Assembly: GCA_018902545.1 (NCBI GenBank)
Contig: JAHIQM010000003.1
Location: forward strand, 1-64,000
Origin: Pseudomonadota bacterium
GTDB lineage: Bacteria; Desulfobacterota; Desulfovibrionia; Desulfovibrionales; Desulfomicrobiaceae
Direction of reading: 5' to 3'
Length of the DNA stretch: 64,000 nucleotides
The notes under the pieces were generated by a model. It did no database searches. It saw only the letters and a program-made list of their open reading frames with translations, and was not told the DNA's origin. A program made the translations under genes and the position numbers. How positions within the stretch are numbered: the first letter of the stretch is position 1; each line of letters starts with the position of its first letter. Of this stretch, positions 1-12,046 are shown one piece after another.

Positions 1-114
1 AGGCTGCACTACAACTCCGTTCGCCCGCACTCAAGCCTGAACAACATGACGCCCGAACACTTCTGTCGGCAGTATGGAAAAAACTTGAACCGTGGGGAAA
101 CCCTCAAGAATTGA
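1..114 (+). CDS. IS3-family transposase OrfB, C-terminal fragment
   Basis: The reading frame entering the window encodes 37 residues with YNSVRPHSSLNNMTPEHF, the classic C-terminal signature of IS3-family DDE transposases (YNxxRPHSSLxxxTP), just after the position of the catalytic glutamate. It stops at the TGA at 112-114. The enzyme would cut and join the ends of the insertion sequence. The N-terminal part, including the D-D-E residues and any OrfA frameshift partner, is outside the window, so activity cannot be judged. Confidence 0.85.
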   Translation, partial: RLHYNSVRPHSSLNNMTPEHFCRQYGKNLNRGETLKN

Positions 115-140
115 GTGGTCCGAAGTTTCCCGGCAGGTCA
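1..140 (+). mobile_element. Right end of an IS3-family insertion sequence (partial)
   Basis: The window opens inside an insertion sequence. The transposase 3' end occupies the first 114 bases. The following 26 bases end in CCCGGCAGGTCA, which looks like the terminal inverted repeat of IS407-group IS3 elements (from memory of that group, not compared). I place the edge at 140 because the next base begins a codon run, HSVGVFHIARKL, that matches the HSxGV motif of HD phosphohydrolases. The left end lies outside the window, so target duplication cannot be checked. Confidence 0.75.
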
Positions 141-1331
141 CATTCAGTTGGCGTTTTTCATATAGCGCGAAAGCTGACAGACATCCTTCGTCGAGAACTT
201 GAAAACGATTTTGATGATTCACGCGCAGAAGTTGCGCTCATCGCCGCACTTCTCCATGATTTGGGCCATGGGCCATTTAGTCATACTTTTGAAGGTGTTC
301 AAAAATCTAGAGGCGTTGCGAAACGACATGAAAAGTGGACGGCAGACCTCATTCGAAGCCCTGAAGGAGAGATACAACCGCTTCTTGAGGCTTTTCGTGA
401 GGGGTTTGCGGAGCTTGTCGCCGGCCTCTTGGAAGCAGAGAATCCCCTTGATATTTACCATGCAGTTGTTTCAAGTTCTTTTGATGCTGATCGGCTTGAC
501 TATTTGCAACGAGACCGCTTGATGACAGGCTCGGGAGCTGGAGCCATTGACTTTGATTGGCTGGTGGACAATTTGCGTGTCGCTGACGTAAGCCTCGAAG
601 CCCCTTACGAAAACGAAGAAGATGATTTGAAGGTGCAGACATTCTGTCTTACCATGAAAGCCTTACCGGCGGCTGAACAATTTCTGCTTGCCCGGCACAC
701 CCTGCATGAACAGGTTTATTATCATAAGACGACACGTTGCGCAGAAAAAATGATTGGAAAATTGCTCCGTCGCATCGCCGAGATAGTCGAAGCAGGCACA
801 AATATCGACATCGAAACGGGTTTGACGAGCAACCATCCGCTGATCCAATTTTTCAAAGGAACTTGCGATAATGCTAACACGTATCTTAACCTTGATGATA
901 CTGTTATCCTAGGCTCTCTCTCACTAATGTCTCACGCGAATGACAACGTTATTCAAGACATATCGAAACGCATACATGATCGCCGCCTCTATAAAACTTT
1001 GGATATTGGCGAAGTTGGCGTTGACACAGGAGCACAGAGACAACGGACTCGCAATATAGAAAATCATTTTCAACAAGCGATTCAAGATGAATCAGTCATA
1101 AAAGATGATCAAGCAACGCTTACTATTTATTCTACTATTGGCGGTGATGAAGAAAAAATTCATAAGCGCCTCCACATTTTAGACGCAAGTAAGCCCAAGG
1201 AAATTAGTGAGATATCCCCAATGATAAAGGCCTTAAGCAACAAACCAATGCCAATACGATTTTTTTTCGAGAATAAAGCAGACCGTGATTTTGCGCGAAC
1301 AATTAGGAGGGAACGACATGTCAGACCGTGA
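141..1331 (+). pseudogene. HD-domain phosphohydrolase, 5' part removed by an IS insertion
   Basis: The frame encodes the body of a YwfO-like HD-superfamily metal-dependent phosphohydrolase. The first metal-ligand region HSVGV sits right at the IS junction, followed by ALLHDLGHGPFSHTFEG with the HD doublet and a later FDADRLDYLQRD, all typical of this family. Family members normally begin with about 50 residues before HSxGV (a region ending in FPGAxHxRFxHS), and these are missing: the IS edge lies immediately before the His. A TTG at 111 inside the IS could start translation in the same frame and give a 406-residue fusion, so some product is possible. The end overlaps the next gene by 14 bases, suggesting translational coupling. 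The original gene is almost certainly disrupted. Confidence 0.75.
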
Positions 1332-1836
1332 ACAACTCGTGGCGGCTATCATCGCATCCGCACCAGAGCAAAAACTGGTCAGCCGTGTCCGGTTTCAAAA
1401 AATCGCGTATTTGCTGGAACAATTGGGCTGCAATCTCGGTTTTGAATTTAGCTATCATCATTACGGGCCTTTTTCTCACGATTTGGAACGAGCAATTTTG
1501 GACGCTAAGGCATTTGGCCTTATTGAAGAAGAACTTGCTCACAGGAAAAGTGATGGCGCTAGCTATAGCATCTTTAAATTAACCGAATCGGACGCTGATG
1601 CCAACGTTCCCGATGTGCAGCATTTCAAATCTCAAATCAAACGTTTTGCTCATTCCAATGTAACTATTTTGGAGCTGGCGGCCACTGCGCATTGGCTTGC
1701 TTCTGCCGAGAAAATATCGAATTGGAAAGAGGAGATTATCAAGCGCAAAGGCATAAAAACTCAGGCTGGACGACTTGAAAAGGCTCTGGATCTTTTAAAA
1801 GAGTTAGATCTTCCGCCAGGAACTTGTTTACAATAA
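1318..1836 (+). CDS. YwgA-like protein, partner of HD phosphohydrolase
   Basis: This 172-residue cytoplasmic protein has VSRVRFQKIAYLLEQLG followed by FEFSYHHYGPFSHDLERAI. These resemble the N-terminal winged-helix-like part of YwgA-family proteins. In Bacillus, ywgA is a neighbour of the HD protein gene ywfO, and the same pair appears here (family knowledge). The ATG at 1318 is chosen because a perfect AGGAGG lies 7 bases upstream and the start overlaps the HD gene stop; a longer in-frame start at 1285 has no such site. Biochemical function is unknown. If the HD gene is broken by the IS, this gene has lost its partner. Confidence 0.7.
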   Translation: MSDREQLVAAIIASAPEQKLVSRVRFQKIAYLLEQLGCNLGFEFSYHHYGPFSHDLERAILDAKAFGLIEEELAHRKSDGASYSIFKLTESDADANVPDVQHFKSQIKRFAHSNVTILELAATAHWLASAEKISNWKEEIIKRKGIKTQAGRLEKALDLLKELDLPPGTCLQ

Positions 1837-2012: not shown

Positions 2013-3536
2013 ATGCCGATCCTCCACTGGCTTACCCGCGAAGAAGATTTGAAAATCTCTGGCCAAGCGCCCTACCGTCTGATCGAACCCGTTGACGAGT
2101 ATTCATACGGGGACATGACTACAGGAAACATGATTATCCAGGGCGACAATCTTGATGCGCTCAAGGCTCTGCTTCCTTACTACGCTGGAAAAGCAAAATG
2201 CATATACATTGACCCTCCATACAATACAAAAAGTGCATTTCAACATTATGACGACAACCTTGAGCACACTAAATGGCTAGAAGTCATATATCCTCGCTTA
2301 GAAATCCTCAGAGATCTTTTAAAAGAGGATGGATCTATTTGGATATCGATTGACGATAACGAAGTGCACTACCTCAAAATCATTTTAGATGAAATTTTCG
2401 GAAGGAAAAACTTTATAACAAATGTAGTATGGCAAAAAAAAGTATCTCCTGCAAATGATGCACTTTGGTTTAGCGGCGATCATGAGCATCTATTAGTATA
2501 TGCTAAAAATAAAAATTTATGGCGACCGAACAGACTTGAAAAAGACGCTACACAGCAAAAATTTTATAACAATCCAGACGATGACCCTAGGGGTCCATGG
2601 AATTCTACCGCATATACATGTGCAAAAACAGCAGAGGAACGACCAAACCTCTATTATCCAATTATAAACCCTTATACTGGAAAAGAAGTCTGGCCAAAAA
2701 AAACACGCGTTTGGGCTTTTAGCCAAGATAGGCATGAGCAAAATCAGCGTGAAAAAAAAATTTACTGGGGAAAAGATGGAACAGCGAAAATGCCGCGTTT
2801 CAAAAAATTTTTAGAAGGGAGCAAAAATGTTGTTCCTAGAAGCATTTGGTCCTATCAAGATGCAGGACATACTCAAGAGTCGATGATAGAGGGTACAATT
2901 TTATTTGGTGAAAATAGATTTTCTACTCCAAAACCAGAAAAATTAATTTATAAAATATTACGAATTGCAACTTCGAATAATGACCTCATCCTTGATTCAT
3001 TTCTTGGATCAGGAACAACAGCCGCAGTAGCGCACAAGATAGGTCGACGCTATATCGGAATTGAAATGAGTATCTCCGCAGAAACTCATTGCAGCCCTCG
3101 CCTTCGCAAAGTCATCGATGGTGAACAAGGTGGCATATCAAAAATTATAAACTGGCAAGGTGGCGGCGGGTTCCGCTTCTATCGCCTAGGAACCCCTATC
3201 TTTGATGAAAACGGAAGCATTCGGAAAGGCATCACTTTCGCCCAACTCGGAGCGCATGCTTGGTTTTCCGAAACCAAAACGCCGCTCCCGAAAATTCCGG
3301 ATTCACCACTTCTCGGTATCCACGGAGATACTGCTTACTACCTACTTTTCAACGGAATCCTGAAGGACAAAAGCGTGAACGGCGGCAATGTCCTGACTTC
3401 GAAAGTCCTTGAAAGCCTACCTAGGCACGACGGGACGAAGGTTATTTATGGAGAGCGGTGCCTCTTCAGCGCCAGCCGTCTGAAAGAATGCCAGATAACC
3501 TTCAAACACACACCCTATGATATCAAAGGCCGTTAA
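2013..3536 (+). CDS. mod: Type III restriction-modification system, DNA methyltransferase (Mod)
   Basis: Mod methylates adenine in an asymmetric site and gives the type III complex its DNA specificity. Of the 507 residues, DPPYNT at about 67-72 is catalytic motif IV, and DSFLGSGTTAAVAHKIGRRYIGIEM at about 327-351 holds the AdoMet-binding motif I. DPPY before FxGxG is the beta-class order seen in type III Mod proteins. Target recognition should lie between, roughly 110-320. The tail contains the GGFRFYRLG-like segment often seen in Mod. The central part is AT-rich and carries A-tracts of 8, 8 and 9 bases (2434-2441, 2696-2703, 2752-2760). It ends 10 bases before res, so the two form an operon. 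Confidence 0.92.
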   Translation: MPILHWLTREEDLKISGQAPYRLIEPVDEYSYGDMTTGNMIIQGDNLDALKALLPYYAGKAKCIYIDPPYNTKSAFQHYDDNLEHTKWLEVIYPRLEILRDLLKEDGSIWISIDDNEVHYLKIILDEIFGRKNFITNVVWQKKVSPANDALWFSGDHEHLLVYAKNKNLWRPNRLEKDATQQKFYNNPDDDPRGPWNSTAYTCAKTAEERPNLYYPIINPYTGKEVWPKKTRVWAFSQDRHEQNQREKKIYWGKDGTAKMPRFKKFLEGSKNVVPRSIWSYQDAGHTQESMIEGTILFGENRFSTPKPEKLIYKILRIATSNNDLILDSFLGSGTTAAVAHKIGRRYIGIEMSISAETHCSPRLRKVIDGEQGGISKIINWQGGGGFRFYRLGTPIFDENGSIRKGITFAQLGAHAWFSETKTPLPKIPDSPLLGIHGDTAYYLLFNGILKDKSVNGGNVLTSKVLESLPRHDGTKVIYGERCLFSASRLKECQITFKHTPYDIKGR

Positions 3537-3546
3537 AGGAGCCTGC

Positions 3547-6207
3547 ATGTTCACCCTGAAGGATTATCAAACACGGACCCTTGAGACCCTGGAAAAGTAC
3601 CTCTCATCCGCACGAATTATCGGCCCCAAAGATGCCTTTGAACGCTTCGTCAAACACAATCCTACCGACACCAATCCGCAACGCTACCGGCACCGCTGGA
3701 GCCTCACAAACGTGCCCTATGTTTGTCTGCGCTTGCCGACAGGCGGTGGAAAAACGCTGCTGGCCTCGCACTGCGTCAAAATCGCTGGTTGCACATTCAT
3801 GGAGCAAGATTACCCCACGGTGCTCTGGCTGGTACCGACGAACACCATTCGGCAACAAACGGTGGAGGCCCTGAAAAATAATGCCCACGCATACCGAGAG
3901 GCCTTGGATACCGCCTTTGGTGTGGACCGAGTTGCGGTATTCGACATTTCAGAACTCACAAGCATTCGCCCCAAGGATTTTCAGGACAAGGCGTGCATCA
4001 TTGTCGGGACCATGCAAACCCTGCGCGTGGCCGAAACCAACAAAGAAGTCCGCAAGGTTTATGGGCACAATGAGAACTTCGAGCCCCATTTTTCAGCCTT
4101 GCCCAACACGGCCCCCGGCCTGGACCGAGACGAAACCGGCCAGGTGCTCTTCTCTTTCGTGAATATCCTGCATCAGTTGAAACCACTGGTCATTGTTGAC
4201 GAAGCCCACAAGGCAGTATCCGACCTCTCCGGTGAAATGATACAGCGCATCAATCCAGCCTGCGTCATCGAACTGACCGCCACTCCCGTCGATAGTAATG
4301 TCCTTTTTCGAGTGTTCGCTTCGGAACTCAAGGCCGAAGAAATGGTCAAACTCCCGTTCATGCTGACAGTTCACCAGGACTGGGAACAGGCGATCAACGG
4401 GGCGGTCCAGACCCGGCGCAAATTGGCGGAATTGGCTCCACAGGACACTGCGAACTATATCCGCCCGATAGTCTTGATCCAGGCAGAAAAGAAAAATCAG
4501 GAGCGCACAGTCGAGGTGGTGAAGGCGCATCTCATTGAAAACGAAGGGGTACCGGAAAGCGAGATCGTCATTGCCACCGGAGAGCAACGCGAACTCGACG
4601 GGGTCAACCTTTTCGATAAGACCTGCAAGGTAAATTACATCATCACCATCGAGGCCCTGAAAGAAGGGTGGGATTGCTCCTTTGCCTACGTTTTCTGCTC
4701 CGTGGCCAATATCCGCTCCGCAACGGATGTCGAGCAGCTTCTGGGACGCGTGATGCGCATGCCCTACGCCAAACGACGCGACATTCCCGAACTGAACAAC
4801 GCCTATGCGCACGTCATCTCACAATCATTCAACGAAGCCGCGCAAGGCATGCACACACGGCTGTTGAACATGGGATTCCATGAAGAAGAAGCGGCGGCCA
4901 ACATCCAAGAAATGCTCAAACTTCCCATGGCGGACATCAACTATTCAAAATTTCCGCTCATGAAAACGATGGGTGCAGCCCCAAGCGGAGTGCCGCCCCT
5001 CACCATGACATTACCCAAAGCCCCGGACATGGGTTCCTTGGCCGAGGAAGCCCTACAGTTTGTTTCATTTTCAAAGAACGAGGATGGAACGGTTCAGGTT
5101 GTCTGTACGGATATCATCCCGGAAGACATCGAGGCCGCCATAATCGCGGCAAACCCGAAACAGGAGGAGGTCATCCGGGCCAGGGTTGCCGTCCACCGGG
5201 CGCGGGTCCGGTCAATACAGCCACCCTCTCCTTCGCAAAAAGGAAGGCTCTTTCCCGTTCCCCAACTCATGCTGGAACTTTGGGGTTCTCTGGAACAGCC
5301 TGAACAAGAAACCATCCTTCATGCCGTGGATTGGAGCCCGCTCAAATTTTCTGTAAGCTTGGAGGCTGGGGAATTCGACTACGACGAAACAGCCCGCACC
5401 TTCCGTTTTGACCTCGAAGGCGAACAGATGAAGTACGAACTTGCGGATTCTCAGGTGCAGCTTTCATTCTTGTCCGCCCCCACTGCGATCACTGAGCAGG
5501 GCTTGGCGCAATGGCTGGACGGCCAATGCCACCGCCCGGATGTTCGCCAGGTGGACATGCTGGAGTTTTGCCGTCGATGCGTGAAATCGCTCCTAGACCG
5601 CAGCGACATCCCACTCCCCATTCTTTGGCGGGCCAGATACGCGCTTGCGGCAGCCGTGAAAGCCAAACTCGTTCGGCTACGTGAAAAATCCCTGAAAGAG
5701 GGTTTCCAACTCTTGCTTTTCGGCCCCGAGGCGAAGGTTCAAACGAGCTTCGAATATTCGCACACCTTTCCACCATCGGGCTATGCCGAAGGAATCCCTG
5801 CTTGCAACAGCTCCTACCGATTCAAAAAACACTTTTACCCTGTGATTCGAGACCTTAAGCCGTGTGGAGAAGAGTACGAGTGCGCCGTGGCTTTGGACAT
5901 GATGCCAGAGATTAAATGGTGGGTGCGCAACGTTGATCGCCAGTACGGATCATTTTGGCTTCCGACCTCTAAGGACAAGTTCTATCCAGATTTCGTTGCC
6001 CATCTTTCAGATGAACGCACTCTTGTAGTGGAATACAAGGGAGAACACCTAGCCAGTGCGGACGACGCCCAAGAAAAACAGAACATCGGCACCCTATGGG
6101 CAGGCAAAAGCGGAGGAAAAACTCTGTTCCTTATGGCAACGAAAAAAGACGGGCAAGGACGAGACGTTCACCGGCAAATACTAGATACGATCAAGAACCT
6201 TCGATAA
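3547..6207 (+). CDS. res: Type III restriction endonuclease subunit (Res)
   Basis: This 886-residue subunit is the DNA-dependent ATPase/translocase and nuclease that works with Mod. PTGGGKTLLASH is the Walker A motif, VIVDEAHKAV the DEAH box, and ELTATP motif III of the SF2 helicase core. EQLLGRVMRMP is the motif VI region. Near the C-terminus, PDFVAHLSDERTLVVEYKG has the PD-(D/E)xK nuclease pattern. The ATG at 3547 is preferred because AAAGGAG lies just upstream; an in-frame ATG at 3517 would overlap mod by 20 bases. All catalytic motifs are intact, so a working system is likely. Confidence 0.93.
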   Translation: MFTLKDYQTRTLETLEKYLSSARIIGPKDAFERFVKHNPTDTNPQRYRHRWSLTNVPYVCLRLPTGGGKTLLASHCVKIAGCTFMEQDYPTVLWLVPTNTIRQQTVEALKNNAHAYREALDTAFGVDRVAVFDISELTSIRPKDFQDKACIIVGTMQTLRVAETNKEVRKVYGHNENFEPHFSALPNTAPGLDRDETGQVLFSFVNILHQLKPLVIVDEAHKAVSDLSGEMIQRINPACVIELTATPVDSNVLFRVFASELKAEEMVKLPFMLTVHQDWEQAINGAVQTRRKLAELAPQDTANYIRPIVLIQAEKKNQERTVEVVKAHLIENEGVPESEIVIATGEQRELDGVNLFDKTCKVNYIITIEALKEGWDCSFAYVFCSVANIRSATDVEQLLGRVMRMPYAKRRDIPELNNAYAHVISQSFNEAAQGMHTRLLNMGFHEEEAAANIQEMLKLPMADINYSKFPLMKTMGAAPSGVPPLTMTLPKAPDMGSLAEEALQFVSFSKNEDGTVQVVCTDIIPEDIEAAIIAANPKQEEVIRARVAVHRARVRSIQPPSPSQKGRLFPVPQLMLELWGSLEQPEQETILHAVDWSPLKFSVSLEAGEFDYDETARTFRFDLEGEQMKYELADSQVQLSFLSAPTAITEQGLAQWLDGQCHRPDVRQVDMLEFCRRCVKSLLDRSDIPLPILWRARYALAAAVKAKLVRLREKSLKEGFQLLLFGPEAKVQTSFEYSHTFPPSGYAEGIPACNSSYRFKKHFYPVIRDLKPCGEEYECAVALDMMPEIKWWVRNVDRQYGSFWLPTSKDKFYPDFVAHLSDERTLVVEYKGEHLASADDAQEKQNIGTLWAGKSGGKTLFLMATKKDGQGRDVHRQILDTIKNLR

Positions 6208-8025: not shown

Positions 8026-8811
8026 TTATTTCGCCCACTGCACACCCACCTTTTTTTCGGCAAGGCTTCGTAGACGAATAGTGAGTTCCTCGCGGAGCCT
8101 GTCTCGACCTTCGCCATTATTAAGATAAAGGGCGTATCTATGGTGCCTTAAGTCGAATGGGATATCCTCTGCGCTCTGCGTTATCGGGACAACATGCTTC
8201 CCGAGTGTGTGCGCGATCCCTGCTTCATAGAAGACATTCGGATTACGACCCGTGAAATCACATATCACGCAGTATGACCGGAAGATAAGGCTGAAAACAT
8301 CTTGAATAACTGTGGCGTCGTCCCATATGTCGTCTGCTCGGAGGCACTGAAACCCAGCAACAGAAGCGGCAGTCTTTATTGTGTCATAGACCGCAGAAAG
8401 TGATGAAGAAAATGGCATCATGACAGAAATGAGATTCGGGTCTGGGTTCTCAGCAGGGACAGCGAAAGCAGATGGCGAGAACACTATACGACGGGCACCG
8501 TTATCAAAGCTTGAGATGAATTCCCCACCTTCGGGACATGTGCGAGCGATGTAGTCCAGCATGAGGGCGTAATTCTCGGACCGCTCGTCAATCATATCCT
8601 TGAGCATCTGGAGGACATGCCCCTCGTAGTCTTCATCCCCCCAACTGAGGCTGCGAAGTAGGCGAGGATGCCTAGAAACGGCGTCAAGCATTTCGGTAAT
8701 TGCCCCAAGTTCTCTCCAATGAGACTCAGTAAAGCCCTGAACAACTTGGTTTTTGAGGGCGACAAGCTGACGTCCCGACGGACCCTGTTCTAATTGCTGT
8801 ATATTTGCCAT
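8026..8811 (-). CDS. TIR-like / nucleoside-deoxyribosyltransferase-like domain protein
   Basis: The C-terminal half of this 261-residue protein carries a recognisable pattern: ISVMMPFS, AGFQCLRADDIWDD, a DVFSLIFRSYCVICDFTGRNPNVFYEAGIAHTLGK run, and IPFDLRHHRYALY. This is the Rossmann-like fold shared by TIR-like and nucleoside 2-deoxyribosyltransferase-like proteins. The Glu in FYEAGIAH corresponds to the usual catalytic glutamate (family knowledge). Such domains often cleave NAD or nucleotides in phage defence, so an NADase or nucleotide hydrolase is plausible. The N-terminal 130 residues look helical and may be a sensor. A TTG at 8844 would extend the start by 11 residues; neither start has a strong ribosome site. 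Confidence 0.6.
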   Translation of the reverse strand: MANIQQLEQGPSGRQLVALKNQVVQGFTESHWRELGAITEMLDAVSRHPRLLRSLSWGDEDYEGHVLQMLKDMIDERSENYALMLDYIARTCPEGGEFISSFDNGARRIVFSPSAFAVPAENPDPNLISVMMPFSSSLSAVYDTIKTAASVAGFQCLRADDIWDDATVIQDVFSLIFRSYCVICDFTGRNPNVFYEAGIAHTLGKHVVPITQSAEDIPFDLRHHRYALYLNNGEGRDRLREELTIRLRSLAEKKVGVQWAK

Positions 8812-8913
8812 GTTTTTTCCATGCTTTACGCCAAGTTCAGTCAAGGAAGGCTTGAATTGTGGCTCGCCGTCGCCCTGAGTGATGAATTATGTTTGGAATG
8901 CTAGGACTTCCGA

Positions 8914-10026
8914 TTACCCATTGGGATGCTTAAAATCTTTACATCCATTAATCCGAGATATTATAAATTTTCCAAATTCTTCTGTGATTTTAACCTTATC
9001 ATTGCCTCTATTTATTGTACCCAATGTAAATCCGCCTGCATTCGTAACTGGGACATCTTTAAATTTTTTTAAATATTCATTTAGAATTTCTTGTCGCTTA
9101 ATATCATGCTTCCACCATTCTTTACCGAATTCTACTGACATATTTCTTGCTTCTACATACCACGGCCATCTTTCAAGAAACGGATCATTTTCAATATCAG
9201 TCTTCGAAACGTGATAGATACCTCCCGTAACTATATAATACGAAAGGATTGAACCAGCTCCAACTGCTGTTGTTATAATTATATCGCCTTTCATTACCCC
9301 CTTGGGTTTTTTCTTTGAAAAATGTAAATTTTGATGCAGTGCAGAAAAGTCACACTGATCAGACAATAGGATCGGGGATTTGCTATGTCCTATTGGTTTT
9401 AAAAAATATTGTGGACTAGTATTCTTTTTATTTTCTACTGAGTATATTACATCTAAAATGTTACAATGTATTTTTGGACCTTGAGTCCACTCAGGATGAT
9501 CTTTTTCATACGATTCTGCAAACTGACAAGCTTTACAAATTTGATGATATGTGACCTCCTGATATTCTATAGAATTAAATGTTTCTTTAATAATACTATC
9601 TATCACCGTATTATCATGAATTTTTAAGCTATATTCATGATTATTGAATAAACCATTACGTGTAAAGTTAGCTGAACCAACAATCATTGATCGTTTTATA
9701 CCATTTATAGCGATGTAAATTTTTCCATGAAGCTTATTATTAATATGAATTTTTATTTTAATATTCGGATAAGTATGCTTAAAATATTCAAAAAAAAATT
9801 TTAAAACTTTAGGTTTTGTAATTTGCTCTGGATCAGATGGTTTAAATGTAGTTATTAATTCGACTTCTTTTGATTCTTCAAACGAAAATTCAGAAAGCAA
9901 TTCTTGAATATTATTCGCCAGGAATGGCGAAATAATAATAAGCTTATCCGATTGAGTTTTAAACAACTTCTTTAATTCATCAAAATGGGTGACGCCCGAA
10001 TTAGAAACCATTTTTATATCTATCAT
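8914..10026 (-). CDS. Phospholipase-D-type nuclease with EVE/PUA-like C-terminus
   Basis: Residues 15-150 form a PLD-like nuclease domain: KLIIISPFL, then KLHGKIYIA with H100-x-K102 and MIVGSANFTRNGL containing the Asn of the HKD motif. This arrangement resembles NgoFVII-type restriction endonucleases (family knowledge). From about 235, MKGDIIITTAVGAGSILSYYIVTGG and DPFLERWPWYVEARNM resemble an EVE/PUA-like domain of the kind that reads modified bases; this part is inference from pattern only. With a single HKD copy the enzyme should dimerise. The gene is very AT-rich compared with the chromosome. A modification-dependent or stand-alone restriction enzyme is the best guess. Confidence 0.65.
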   Translation of the reverse strand: MIDIKMVSNSGVTHFDELKKLFKTQSDKLIIISPFLANNIQELLSEFSFEESKEVELITTFKPSDPEQITKPKVLKFFFEYFKHTYPNIKIKIHINNKLHGKIYIAINGIKRSMIVGSANFTRNGLFNNHEYSLKIHDNTVIDSIIKETFNSIEYQEVTYHQICKACQFAESYEKDHPEWTQGPKIHCNILDVIYSVENKKNTSPQYFLKPIGHSKSPILLSDQCDFSALHQNLHFSKKKPKGVMKGDIIITTAVGAGSILSYYIVTGGIYHVSKTDIENDPFLERWPWYVEARNMSVEFGKEWWKHDIKRQEILNEYLKKFKDVPVTNAGGFTLGTINRGNDKVKITEEFGKFIISRINGCKDFKHPNG

Positions 10027-10118: not shown

Positions 10119-10943
10119 TCATGGCAGCGTAATGCCCAACGTCAAGACGGCAGCTTTCAATGCCTGATATGCTGGCTGTGCGCTAGCAATGGATTGAATT
10201 GCTATACCCAGTACGTTGAACATAGTGAAAAGTTTCGTGTTATTTGGGGTGCTAGTTGACATCTGCAACATGCACTCATCAACGATTTCAAGAAGTTCTC
10301 TTCGCTCCTGTACACCAAGCGTGGACACATTTGAGAGAACATCACGAACTTGCTGAATGGCTGAAGATAGGGATGCACGATCATCGGGGTCAAGATTCTG
10401 TATGACATTAGCGGTTACGTTAGCGCCGGTTTGAACAGAACCAACTGCCCCATAAAAATTGTAGTGTTGCATCACTGCCCCGTTAGTTTTTTCTTCATCT
10501 TTGATAGAAAGAGAATCGACGTAAAGATCAACCTCTATGTCATGTTTTTCTGTGACAGCGCGATGAGCGTCGAGAAGTGAGGCAGATATGTTAACCCCAC
10601 TCCTGTGGGTGCGATCATCAAGAGAAGTTGTTAGTTCGATCATCAACTGATCAATACGTCTATGAATTTCACCCTTCAGATTATTACGGAGACTATTGAT
10701 CATTGGTTGCCCGAAGATTCGGTGTACGCGAACCAAACTTTCCCAAGCGATAATGGCTCGCACTTCCAGTTCGCGCTCGTGCGCCTGTTGGATCTGATTA
10801 ATCCATACACTCGAATTAAGCATTCCGCGTGCAGCAGCTTGTGAGTGGACTTGGCTCAATTCAAGAGAAAACAGCTTCTTACGCTCTGCCATCATGACTT
10901 CGACAAGTTTCTCAAATCGAGCTTGCATTGTTGTGTCGAGCAT
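10119..10943 (-). CDS. Unknown protein with GAVGSVQTG motif
   Basis: I do not recognise the 274-residue protein as a named family. Residues 1-125 are helical and coiled-coil-like (LVEVMMAERKKLFSLEL, QQAHERELEVRAIIAWESL). At about 157-180, HYNFYGAVGSVQTGANVTAN is a short Gly-rich beta-type segment that I have seen in several defence-island proteins of unknown role. The rest, DRASLSSAIQQVRDVLSNV and onward, is again helical. No membrane helix or catalytic motif is visible. The start ATG has AAGGGG about 10 bases upstream. It lies 69 bases downstream of the next unknown gene on the same strand, so the two are probably one unit. Confidence 0.6.
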   Translation of the reverse strand: MLDTTMQARFEKLVEVMMAERKKLFSLELSQVHSQAAARGMLNSSVWINQIQQAHERELEVRAIIAWESLVRVHRIFGQPMINSLRNNLKGEIHRRIDQLMIELTTSLDDRTHRSGVNISASLLDAHRAVTEKHDIEVDLYVDSLSIKDEEKTNGAVMQHYNFYGAVGSVQTGANVTANVIQNLDPDDRASLSSAIQQVRDVLSNVSTLGVQERRELLEIVDECMLQMSTSTPNNTKLFTMFNVLGIAIQSIASAQPAYQALKAAVLTLGITLP

Positions 10944-11012: not shown

Positions 11013-11438
11013 TTAGGCGAAAGGGGTTTGCTCTCCCCGTTCTTCGATGTCCGCAGATACTGTTATTGGCCTGAATCCCTTGAACTTGTACACTCTCTTT
11101 GTAATTCGCCTGCCTGCGCCAGAGGCACCAAGAGTCAGGCTTTCCTCGGACGTCTTCAAACCTAATGCTCCTTCACCTGATGAATCATAGTATTCTTCAA
11201 TTTCAACATCTTCAGCGTTGTCTATCCGACGAGCAATTGCAAGTTCTTGCTCAACTCTGGCTTTTCCTTGCAATACACGCGTCTCGATATCCTGTCGGAT
11301 GGCCTCTTCCTCAAGTTTTGCCGTCGTTACAGTCTTCGATTTGGCATCCGTCGTAAAGGACTCGATCGCTGTATCCAAAGCTTTGCGTATTAGGTAGCCA
11401 CTTGGATTAATGGCGAATTTGACGATCTCGATCGACAT
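11013..11438 (-). CDS. Unknown coiled-coil protein
   Basis: This 141-residue protein has no recognised domain. Residues 35-75 (AKLEEEAIRQDIETRVLQ and onward) should form a long charged helix or coiled coil, followed by an acidic EDVEIEEYYD stretch, a Gly/Ser-rich linker and a basic RRITKRVYKFKGFRPI segment. The start ATG has AAGGAGAG at good spacing, so it is probably a real gene. It precedes the GAVGSVQTG protein and may act with it. It is the last clear gene before the island boundary at 12046. Confidence 0.6.
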   Translation of the reverse strand: MSIEIVKFAINPSGYLIRKALDTAIESFTTDAKSKTVTTAKLEEEAIRQDIETRVLQGKARVEQELAIARRIDNAEDVEIEEYYDSSGEGALGLKTSEESLTLGASGAGRRITKRVYKFKGFRPITVSADIEERGEQTPFA

Positions 11439-11996: not shown

Positions 11997-12046
11997 CTTG
12001 AATGGCATTCAAGAGGTCCGCGGTTCGATCCCGCGTAGCTCCACCA
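11997..12046 (+). repeat. tRNA-Ala(GGC) 3' half: probable attachment site of the island
   Basis: These 50 bases match the anticodon arm, T arm and acceptor 3' strand of a bacterial tRNA-Ala: CTTGAATGGCATTCAAG with the GGC anticodon, the T arm CGCGGTTCGATCCCGCG, and TAGCTCCACCA. The 5' half (D arm and acceptor 5' strand) is absent, so it cannot make a tRNA. Integrating elements that use a tRNA 3' end leave exactly such a duplicate at their far end. The intact gene should then lie to the left, outside the window, on the same strand. Confidence 0.85.

Follow-up and report, generated by a model that had tools for sequence, protein, structure and literature searches.

A predicted PLD nuclease with a probable EVE-like domain: a candidate single-chain restriction enzyme from a Desulfomicrobiaceae bacterium

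Can one polypeptide chain both select invading DNA and cut it? This question is raised by a gene in a window of 64,000 nucleotides, the whole stretch of DNA analysed here, from a bacterium of the family Desulfomicrobiaceae (GenBank assembly GCA_018902545.1, contig JAHIQM010000003.1, positions 1 to 64,000). An earlier note on the window had read the frame at 8914-10026 as an NgoFVII-type HKD nuclease followed by an EVE/PUA-like reader, together forming a modification-dependent restriction enzyme of uncommon architecture. The limits of the frame are exact: it lies on the minus strand, starts with ATG and encodes 370 amino acids. We refer to its product as P0001. The following features of the window are used below:

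8914..10026, minus strand: whole gene, PLD nuclease plus putative EVE-like domain (P0001; ATG start, 370 aa, ORF list)
9550..9957, minus strand: BfiI/NgoFVII-type PLD nuclease domain, aa 24-159 (PF09565 and PF13091)
9634..9729, minus strand: catalytic stretch H100-x-K102 ... N120 ... E131 (alignment to 2c1l)
8953..9414, minus strand: predicted EVE-like (PUA superfamily) domain, aa 205-358, approximate extent (hhalign global alignment)
9139..9309, minus strand: part of the EVE-like match with the strongest support, aa 240-296 (hhalign local P 1.5e-5, probability 79%)
8995..9039, minus strand: family-specific motif AGGxxLGxxNxGxDK, aa 330-344 (kept in three of three members)
8026-8844, minus strand: AbiJ_NTD5 gene directly downstream of the PLD-EVE gene (PF18865, 90.3 bits)

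The nuclease domain

The N-terminal half of P0001 is recognised by two Pfam families, PF09565 (RE_NgoFVII; 38.3 bits, cut-off 23.8) and PF13091 (33.8 bits, cut-off 27). Among solved structures BfiI (2c1l) was the best match, with an E-value of 8.6e-4 over residues 90-141. The catalytic residues of BfiI are H105, K107, N125 and E136 (PMC4081073, in the passages used here), and they align in 2c1l to H100, K102, N120 and E131 of P0001, which bears out the earlier identification of an HKD nuclease. The H-x-K, N and E residues are kept in all three members of the family that we found, namely P0001, a Priestia protein (P0002, WP_241097389.1) and a third member from another class. P0002 matches PF09565 with 45.8 bits; the third member stays below the cut-off of this model with 19.7 bits and exceeds that of PF13091 (31.9 bits, cut-off 27). 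Given the PLD match and the four retained catalytic residues, a BfiI-like metal-independent nuclease is to be expected, and we predict with high confidence that P0001 is active as a PLD nuclease.

Like P0001, BfiI carries its PLD domain with the H-x-K, N and E residues at the N-terminus, and both BfiI and NgoFVII are described as having a DNA-binding C-terminus (passages of PMC4081073). The B3-like C-terminus of BfiI reads unmodified sequence (PMC4081073, same passages), unlike the reader that we propose for P0001. NgoFVII differs from P0001 in its C-terminal family, which P0001 does not match: none of 118 genomes, that of P0001 included, has a match to RE_NgoFVII_C (PF20731). A zinc ribbon in the linker between the two halves (Pfam PF09855, E 0.15) was considered and rejected; of the paired cysteines near residues 165-168, one is left in the third member and none in Priestia.

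The C-terminal domain and its similarity to EVE proteins

Family searches with the C-terminal half returned little. When residues 191-370 were scanned alone, Pfam gave no match up to E 10, PF01878 (EVE) included, and the PF01878 match listed for the same genome belongs to a different gene, on C14. For the same residues PADLOC had no match and NCBIfam had one only, AzuC, far below its cut-off. Searches of the C-terminal half against the PDB yielded nothing meaningful (best E 0.092 by sequence and 1.2 with a two-row profile), and those against PHROGs yielded weak matches of unknown function or to tail fibres. AlphaFold models built without an alignment were poor, with a pLDDT of 32.4 for the whole of P0001 and 38.5 for the C-terminal domain. 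P0001 is thus not filed as a Pfam EVE member because it falls short of the PF01878 cut-off, and it is not filed as an NgoFVII enzyme because its C-terminal domain is different.

The two motifs on which the EVE reading had been based are both present in the conserved part of this region: GDIIITT occupies residues 247-253 and ERWPWYVEA residues 285-293, both within the core of aa 240-296. P0001 and the Priestia relative share RWPW, GDIII, AVG, AGG, TLG and DK unchanged, and the third member also keeps RWPW, GD and AVG. The order of the motifs is that of the EVE proteins 2p5d and 1wmm/2hd9.

A profile comparison of the C-terminal alignment was more informative. EVE domains were collected with PF01878, which matched in 14 of 148 genomes. 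The canonical EVE profile yielded no clear signal (P 0.039-0.07). A narrower UPF0310-type profile of six rows was built from MJECL36 (2p5d), a Thermococcus relative, PH1033 (1wmm, 2hd9), the viral-contig sequence L054 and two bridge sequences, L049 and L050. The narrowing followed the observation of a resemblance of L050, and a modest selection effect on the match has to be allowed for. Against this profile, the two-row alignment headed by P0001 scored 37.2 in hhalign local mode (P 1.5e-5, probability 79%), the same alignment headed by the Priestia row 30.8 (P 2.1e-4) and the three-member alignment 37.7 (P 1.5e-5). Column shuffling never came up to the observed score, either in 150 shuffles (maximum 23.0) or in 200 (maximum 19.8). 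Lower scores were also obtained with the alignment reversed (15.5), with the PLD half of these proteins (11.7) and with ASCH controls (12.4-19.1). Three NgoFVII-type C-termini from the phylum reached 8.0-9.4 in hhalign when compared with the C-terminal alignment (P 0.72-0.89).

The strength of the match depends on how it is set up. In global mode with P0001 first, positions 7-160 aligned to 1-144 of the MJECL36-headed profile and covered the whole domain (P 0.0026); when the Priestia row headed the alignment, the global match failed (P 0.38). As single sequences against the UPF0310-type profile, P0001 gave P 0.14, the Priestia protein 2.7e-5 and the third member 9.8e-4. Omission of either L050 or L049 weakened the match to about P 1e-4, omission of both to 0.003 and omission of both together with the viral-contig row to 0.0098, whereas P remained at 2.1e-5 without the three archaeal rows. 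With the UPF0310 profile in HMMER, the Priestia protein was the best non-EVE frame among 3957 (13.3 bits, E 0.012) and P0001 was absent from the matches at E 1. Overall, the comparison gives a moderate signal, and it suggests a similarity of the C-terminal half to EVE beyond chance and beyond that seen with other folds. An EVE/PUA-like fold is likely on these grounds, an estimate that allows for the weaker match obtained when the two rows change places. The EVE/PUA-like domain proposed in the earlier note thus gains a profile match above all controls, but the match is moderate, depends partly on bridge sequences and is not accompanied by a Pfam EVE match. As a proposal about architecture the note was good and went beyond what family searches give. 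MJECL36 and PH1033 resemble the C-terminus of P0001 in profile and motif order and differ from P0001 in being small one-domain proteins.

Does the domain retain the cytosine pocket of other EVE proteins? We provisionally equate the UPF0310 position after 'SKI' with the pocket aromatic Y82/W82. In the merged alignments this position is Ile in all three members, and it lies beside gaps, where its placing is uncertain. The tryptophan of UPF0310 position W22 is likewise absent, again in a region beside gaps. In this uncertain alignment P0001 therefore keeps neither of the two UPF0310 aromatics and has Ile where VcaM4I has W82. The EVE domain of VcaM4I is described as holding flipped 5mC or 5hmC mainly via P24, W82 and Y130, and W26 and Y82 are the residues first stressed in 2eve (passages of PMC7897488). 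Since the region lies beside gaps, we treat the apparent lack of the pocket aromatic as a reason for caution, short of a refutation.

Relatives and genomic setting

P0001 belongs to a lineage that is rare in the plasmid, phage and genome sets searched, where three members were found. A single one of 72,556 plasmid records matched P0001, that of Priestia megaterium pBP01R2b (34.8% identity over 96%), and P0002 as query found only itself among the plasmids. None of 50,697 phage records matched P0001, and none matched P0002. Within its class, P0001 had matches in 9 of 348 genomes, at full length only in its own, where it is the sole match; in the other eight the match was confined to the PLD region or extended little beyond it, and frames from three of these eight had no similar C-terminus. 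The C-terminal profile (A2) detected one of 395 genomes in the phylum, the P0001 genome itself, and a single one among 277 genomes from a different class of the same phylum. In the third member, 178 of 318 aligned residues are identical to P0001 (56%), and the frame is shifted near its end. Genome contigs scanned with P0001 and with A2 contained no relative; viral contigs contained no member of the PLD-EVE family and one EVE domain, L054, which was used in the profile.

PF09565 matched in 59 of 395 genomes of the phylum, the P0001 genome included, and loci of this kind were searched for other PLD-EVE fusions. The set comprised 37 loci, 29 new and 8 earlier, and a PLD frame could be extracted from 28, which were scanned; the other nine gave no PLD frame, and some frames were cut by locus ends. 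The best of these frames reached 9.7 bits with a mixed EVE profile (E 0.0013 in this small set), 6.2 bits with the UPF0310 profile and 1.7 bits with the PLD-EVE family profile, matches that we judged too weak.

In the window, the PLD-EVE gene lies in a stretch of low GC content (27-38% in 500-base windows across the gene, as against 54-68% from about 12.25 to 17 kb) that also holds a type III Mod and Res pair at 2013-6207. The methyltransferase gene of this pair, at 2013-3536, has its own Res gene after it. No methyltransferase match was obtained in the three scanned genes flanking the PLD-EVE gene, and as far as these genes extend it has no cognate methyltransferase adjoining it, a criterion of type IV enzymes. 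The downstream gene at 8026-8844 encodes an AbiJ_NTD5 domain, then a stretch matching the PADLOC TIR effector model (E 1.8e-9), and is likely a separate gene of the abortive-infection type. The two genes upstream, at 10119-10943 and 11013-11438 (minus strand), have no clear family match; the PADLOC PDC-M14B matches of the former are weak (best E 0.0014). At 111-1836 (plus strand) an HD-domain gene precedes a relative of the DarG C-terminal part (NCBIfam E 9e-12, PADLOC E 1.1e-13); these are perhaps a small two-gene system. At the jump in GC content, positions 11997-12046 (plus strand) correspond to the 3' part of a tRNA-Ala(GGC) with CCA, followed by a terminator-like stretch. The shared sequence extends to about 12131, with 91% and 83% identity to two intact tRNA-Ala loci on other contigs. 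The tRNA fragment has the appearance of the attachment-site end of the island.

In Priestia (L002 6001-11388), the start of an SbcD-like gene lies 15 bases beyond the PLD-EVE gene, and an SbcC-like gene comes next, with LmuB (Lamassu) and PbeC matches in PADLOC; the three are perhaps a defence unit. The neighbour on the opposite flank, an HNH-like gene, is divergent and carries the annotation of a restriction endonuclease. PADLOC mREase_IV recognises its nuclease portion (24.5 bits), Pfam 'Pua-like' scores 23.5 at its N-terminus against a cut-off of 27, and its HNH matches likewise fall slightly short of the cut-off. The third locus has an HNH_2 gene (41.1 bits, cut-off 21) some 1.3 kb upstream of the PLD-EVE member. 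Both relatives thus have an HNH-type nuclease gene nearby, one of them of type IV character. The HNH_2 protein (L133 4677-5972) also contains DUF5655, and its middle part 'EKDFPWSCYIQPYS' resembles an EVE stretch by eye. In a profile test for an EVE-like part, the HNH neighbour in Priestia gave none (P 0.19-0.37) and that at the third locus gave a weak one (best P 0.0054). No SbcCD-like match was found by Pfam among 8 other genes of the window or 4 neighbours at the third locus, and no gene family common to all three neighbourhoods was seen.

A putative restriction enzyme and the mark that it may read

The combination of a PLD nuclease and an EVE domain in one chain has been published before as a prediction. 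Bell et al. (2020, BMC Biol 18:159, PMC7641849) describe EVE fusions to PLDc nucleases as 'numerous' and discuss them among predicted modification-dependent restriction enzymes; these have the same domain pair in one chain as P0001, and the passages of the paper drawn on here report no tested PLDc-EVE protein. The fusion as such is therefore not novel, although the P0001 lineage is rare in the sets searched. No paper on a tested PLD-EVE enzyme was found in the open-access literature. The PLD-wH endonucleases Aba4572I and CbaI are likewise single chains of a PLD nuclease and a reader, a role that in P0001 is predicted; their reader is unlike that of P0001 in being a winged helix for 6mA, their toxicity in E. 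coli is Dam-dependent, and the proteins could not be purified (Front Microbiol 2024, passages of PMC11037411). VcaM4I joins an EVE domain, a sensor of 5mC/5hmC, to a nuclease in one chain, much as is predicted for P0001, and differs in its HNH nuclease and the N-terminal position of EVE (NAR 2021, passages of PMC7897488). It looks as if P0001 works like the PLD-EVE and PLD-wH systems. In the literature found, single-chain modification-dependent PLD enzymes are mostly predictions, and the three-member family offers an intact, testable example with a reader domain that the family models searched do not recognise.

P0001, encoded in an apparently foreign DNA island, is probably a phage-defence enzyme. 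In the mechanism that we propose, two N-terminal PLD domains would pair to form one metal-independent active site, as in the BfiI dimer, and DNA strands would be cut through a phospho-histidine intermediate, again by analogy with BfiI. The C-terminal EVE-like domain would act as the sensor that chooses the DNA to be cut, most likely by accepting a modified base flipped into its pocket, as VcaM4I does, and would direct an otherwise non-specific nuclease against invading DNA. This reading is drawn from the two-domain chain, the catalytic residues, the EVE profile match, the defence-gene setting and the HNH-type neighbours of the relatives; for the explanation as a whole we see the case as evenly balanced.

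Three other explanations have to be weighed against it. P0001 could be a PLD endonuclease of the ordinary type II-like or solitary kind, with a C-terminus that binds a specific sequence, as the B3-like domain of BfiI does, and takes no account of modification. The PLD family and the N-to-C order are those of BfiI and the pocket aromatic is not conserved, as this would lead one to expect, but the C-terminus matches neither RE_NgoFVII_C nor the three NgoFVII-type C-termini, and the three flanking genes scanned have no methyltransferase match, the methyltransferase gene at 2013-3536 being followed by a Res gene of its own; we regard this possibility as rather unlikely. The Priestia locus raises the idea that the protein is instead the nuclease subunit of a multi-gene defence system, switched on by partners and not by a DNA mark that it reads itself; in Priestia the partners would be the SbcD- and SbcC-like products of the genes that come next. 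Several PADLOC systems do include PLD proteins. However, the SbcCD-like genes are confined to Priestia among the neighbours scanned and the three neighbourhoods lack a common gene family, which makes this reading, including its partners, improbable. Finally, the frameshift in the third member would fit a PLD protein that has decayed or is inactive and that sits in the island with no part in defence, but the copy in the window is open over its full length with intact catalytic residues, and we consider decay very unlikely.

If P0001 is the single-chain restriction enzyme outlined above, which mark would it read? That its cleavage depends on DNA modification at all is in our judgement about as probable as the opposite, and a modified-cytosine-dependent enzyme is a hypothesis at this stage; that 5mC or 5hmC is the mark is doubtful. 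The host genome has three PF00145 C5-cytosine methyltransferase genes, and the Priestia plasmid has a C5 cytosine methyltransferase gene about 4.2 kb from the PLD-EVE gene. Because cleavage at every 5mC would endanger such hosts, these genes argue against indiscriminate cutting at 5mC; a context-dependent or hypermodification-dependent enzyme would not pose this threat. Alternatively, though we think it rather unlikely, RWPW and AGGxxLGxxNxGxDK may be the signature of an EVE-like subfamily in its own right, in which the usual cytosine pocket is gone and the C-terminal domain reads another mark, such as an unusual or bulky base of phage DNA or a 4mC or 6mA context. A recognised 5mC or 5hmC would fill in an expected combination, whereas a new mark would provide an additional tool for mapping modified DNA. 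A subfamily that reads another mark could coexist with several C5 methyltransferases and leave the DNA of its host uncut.
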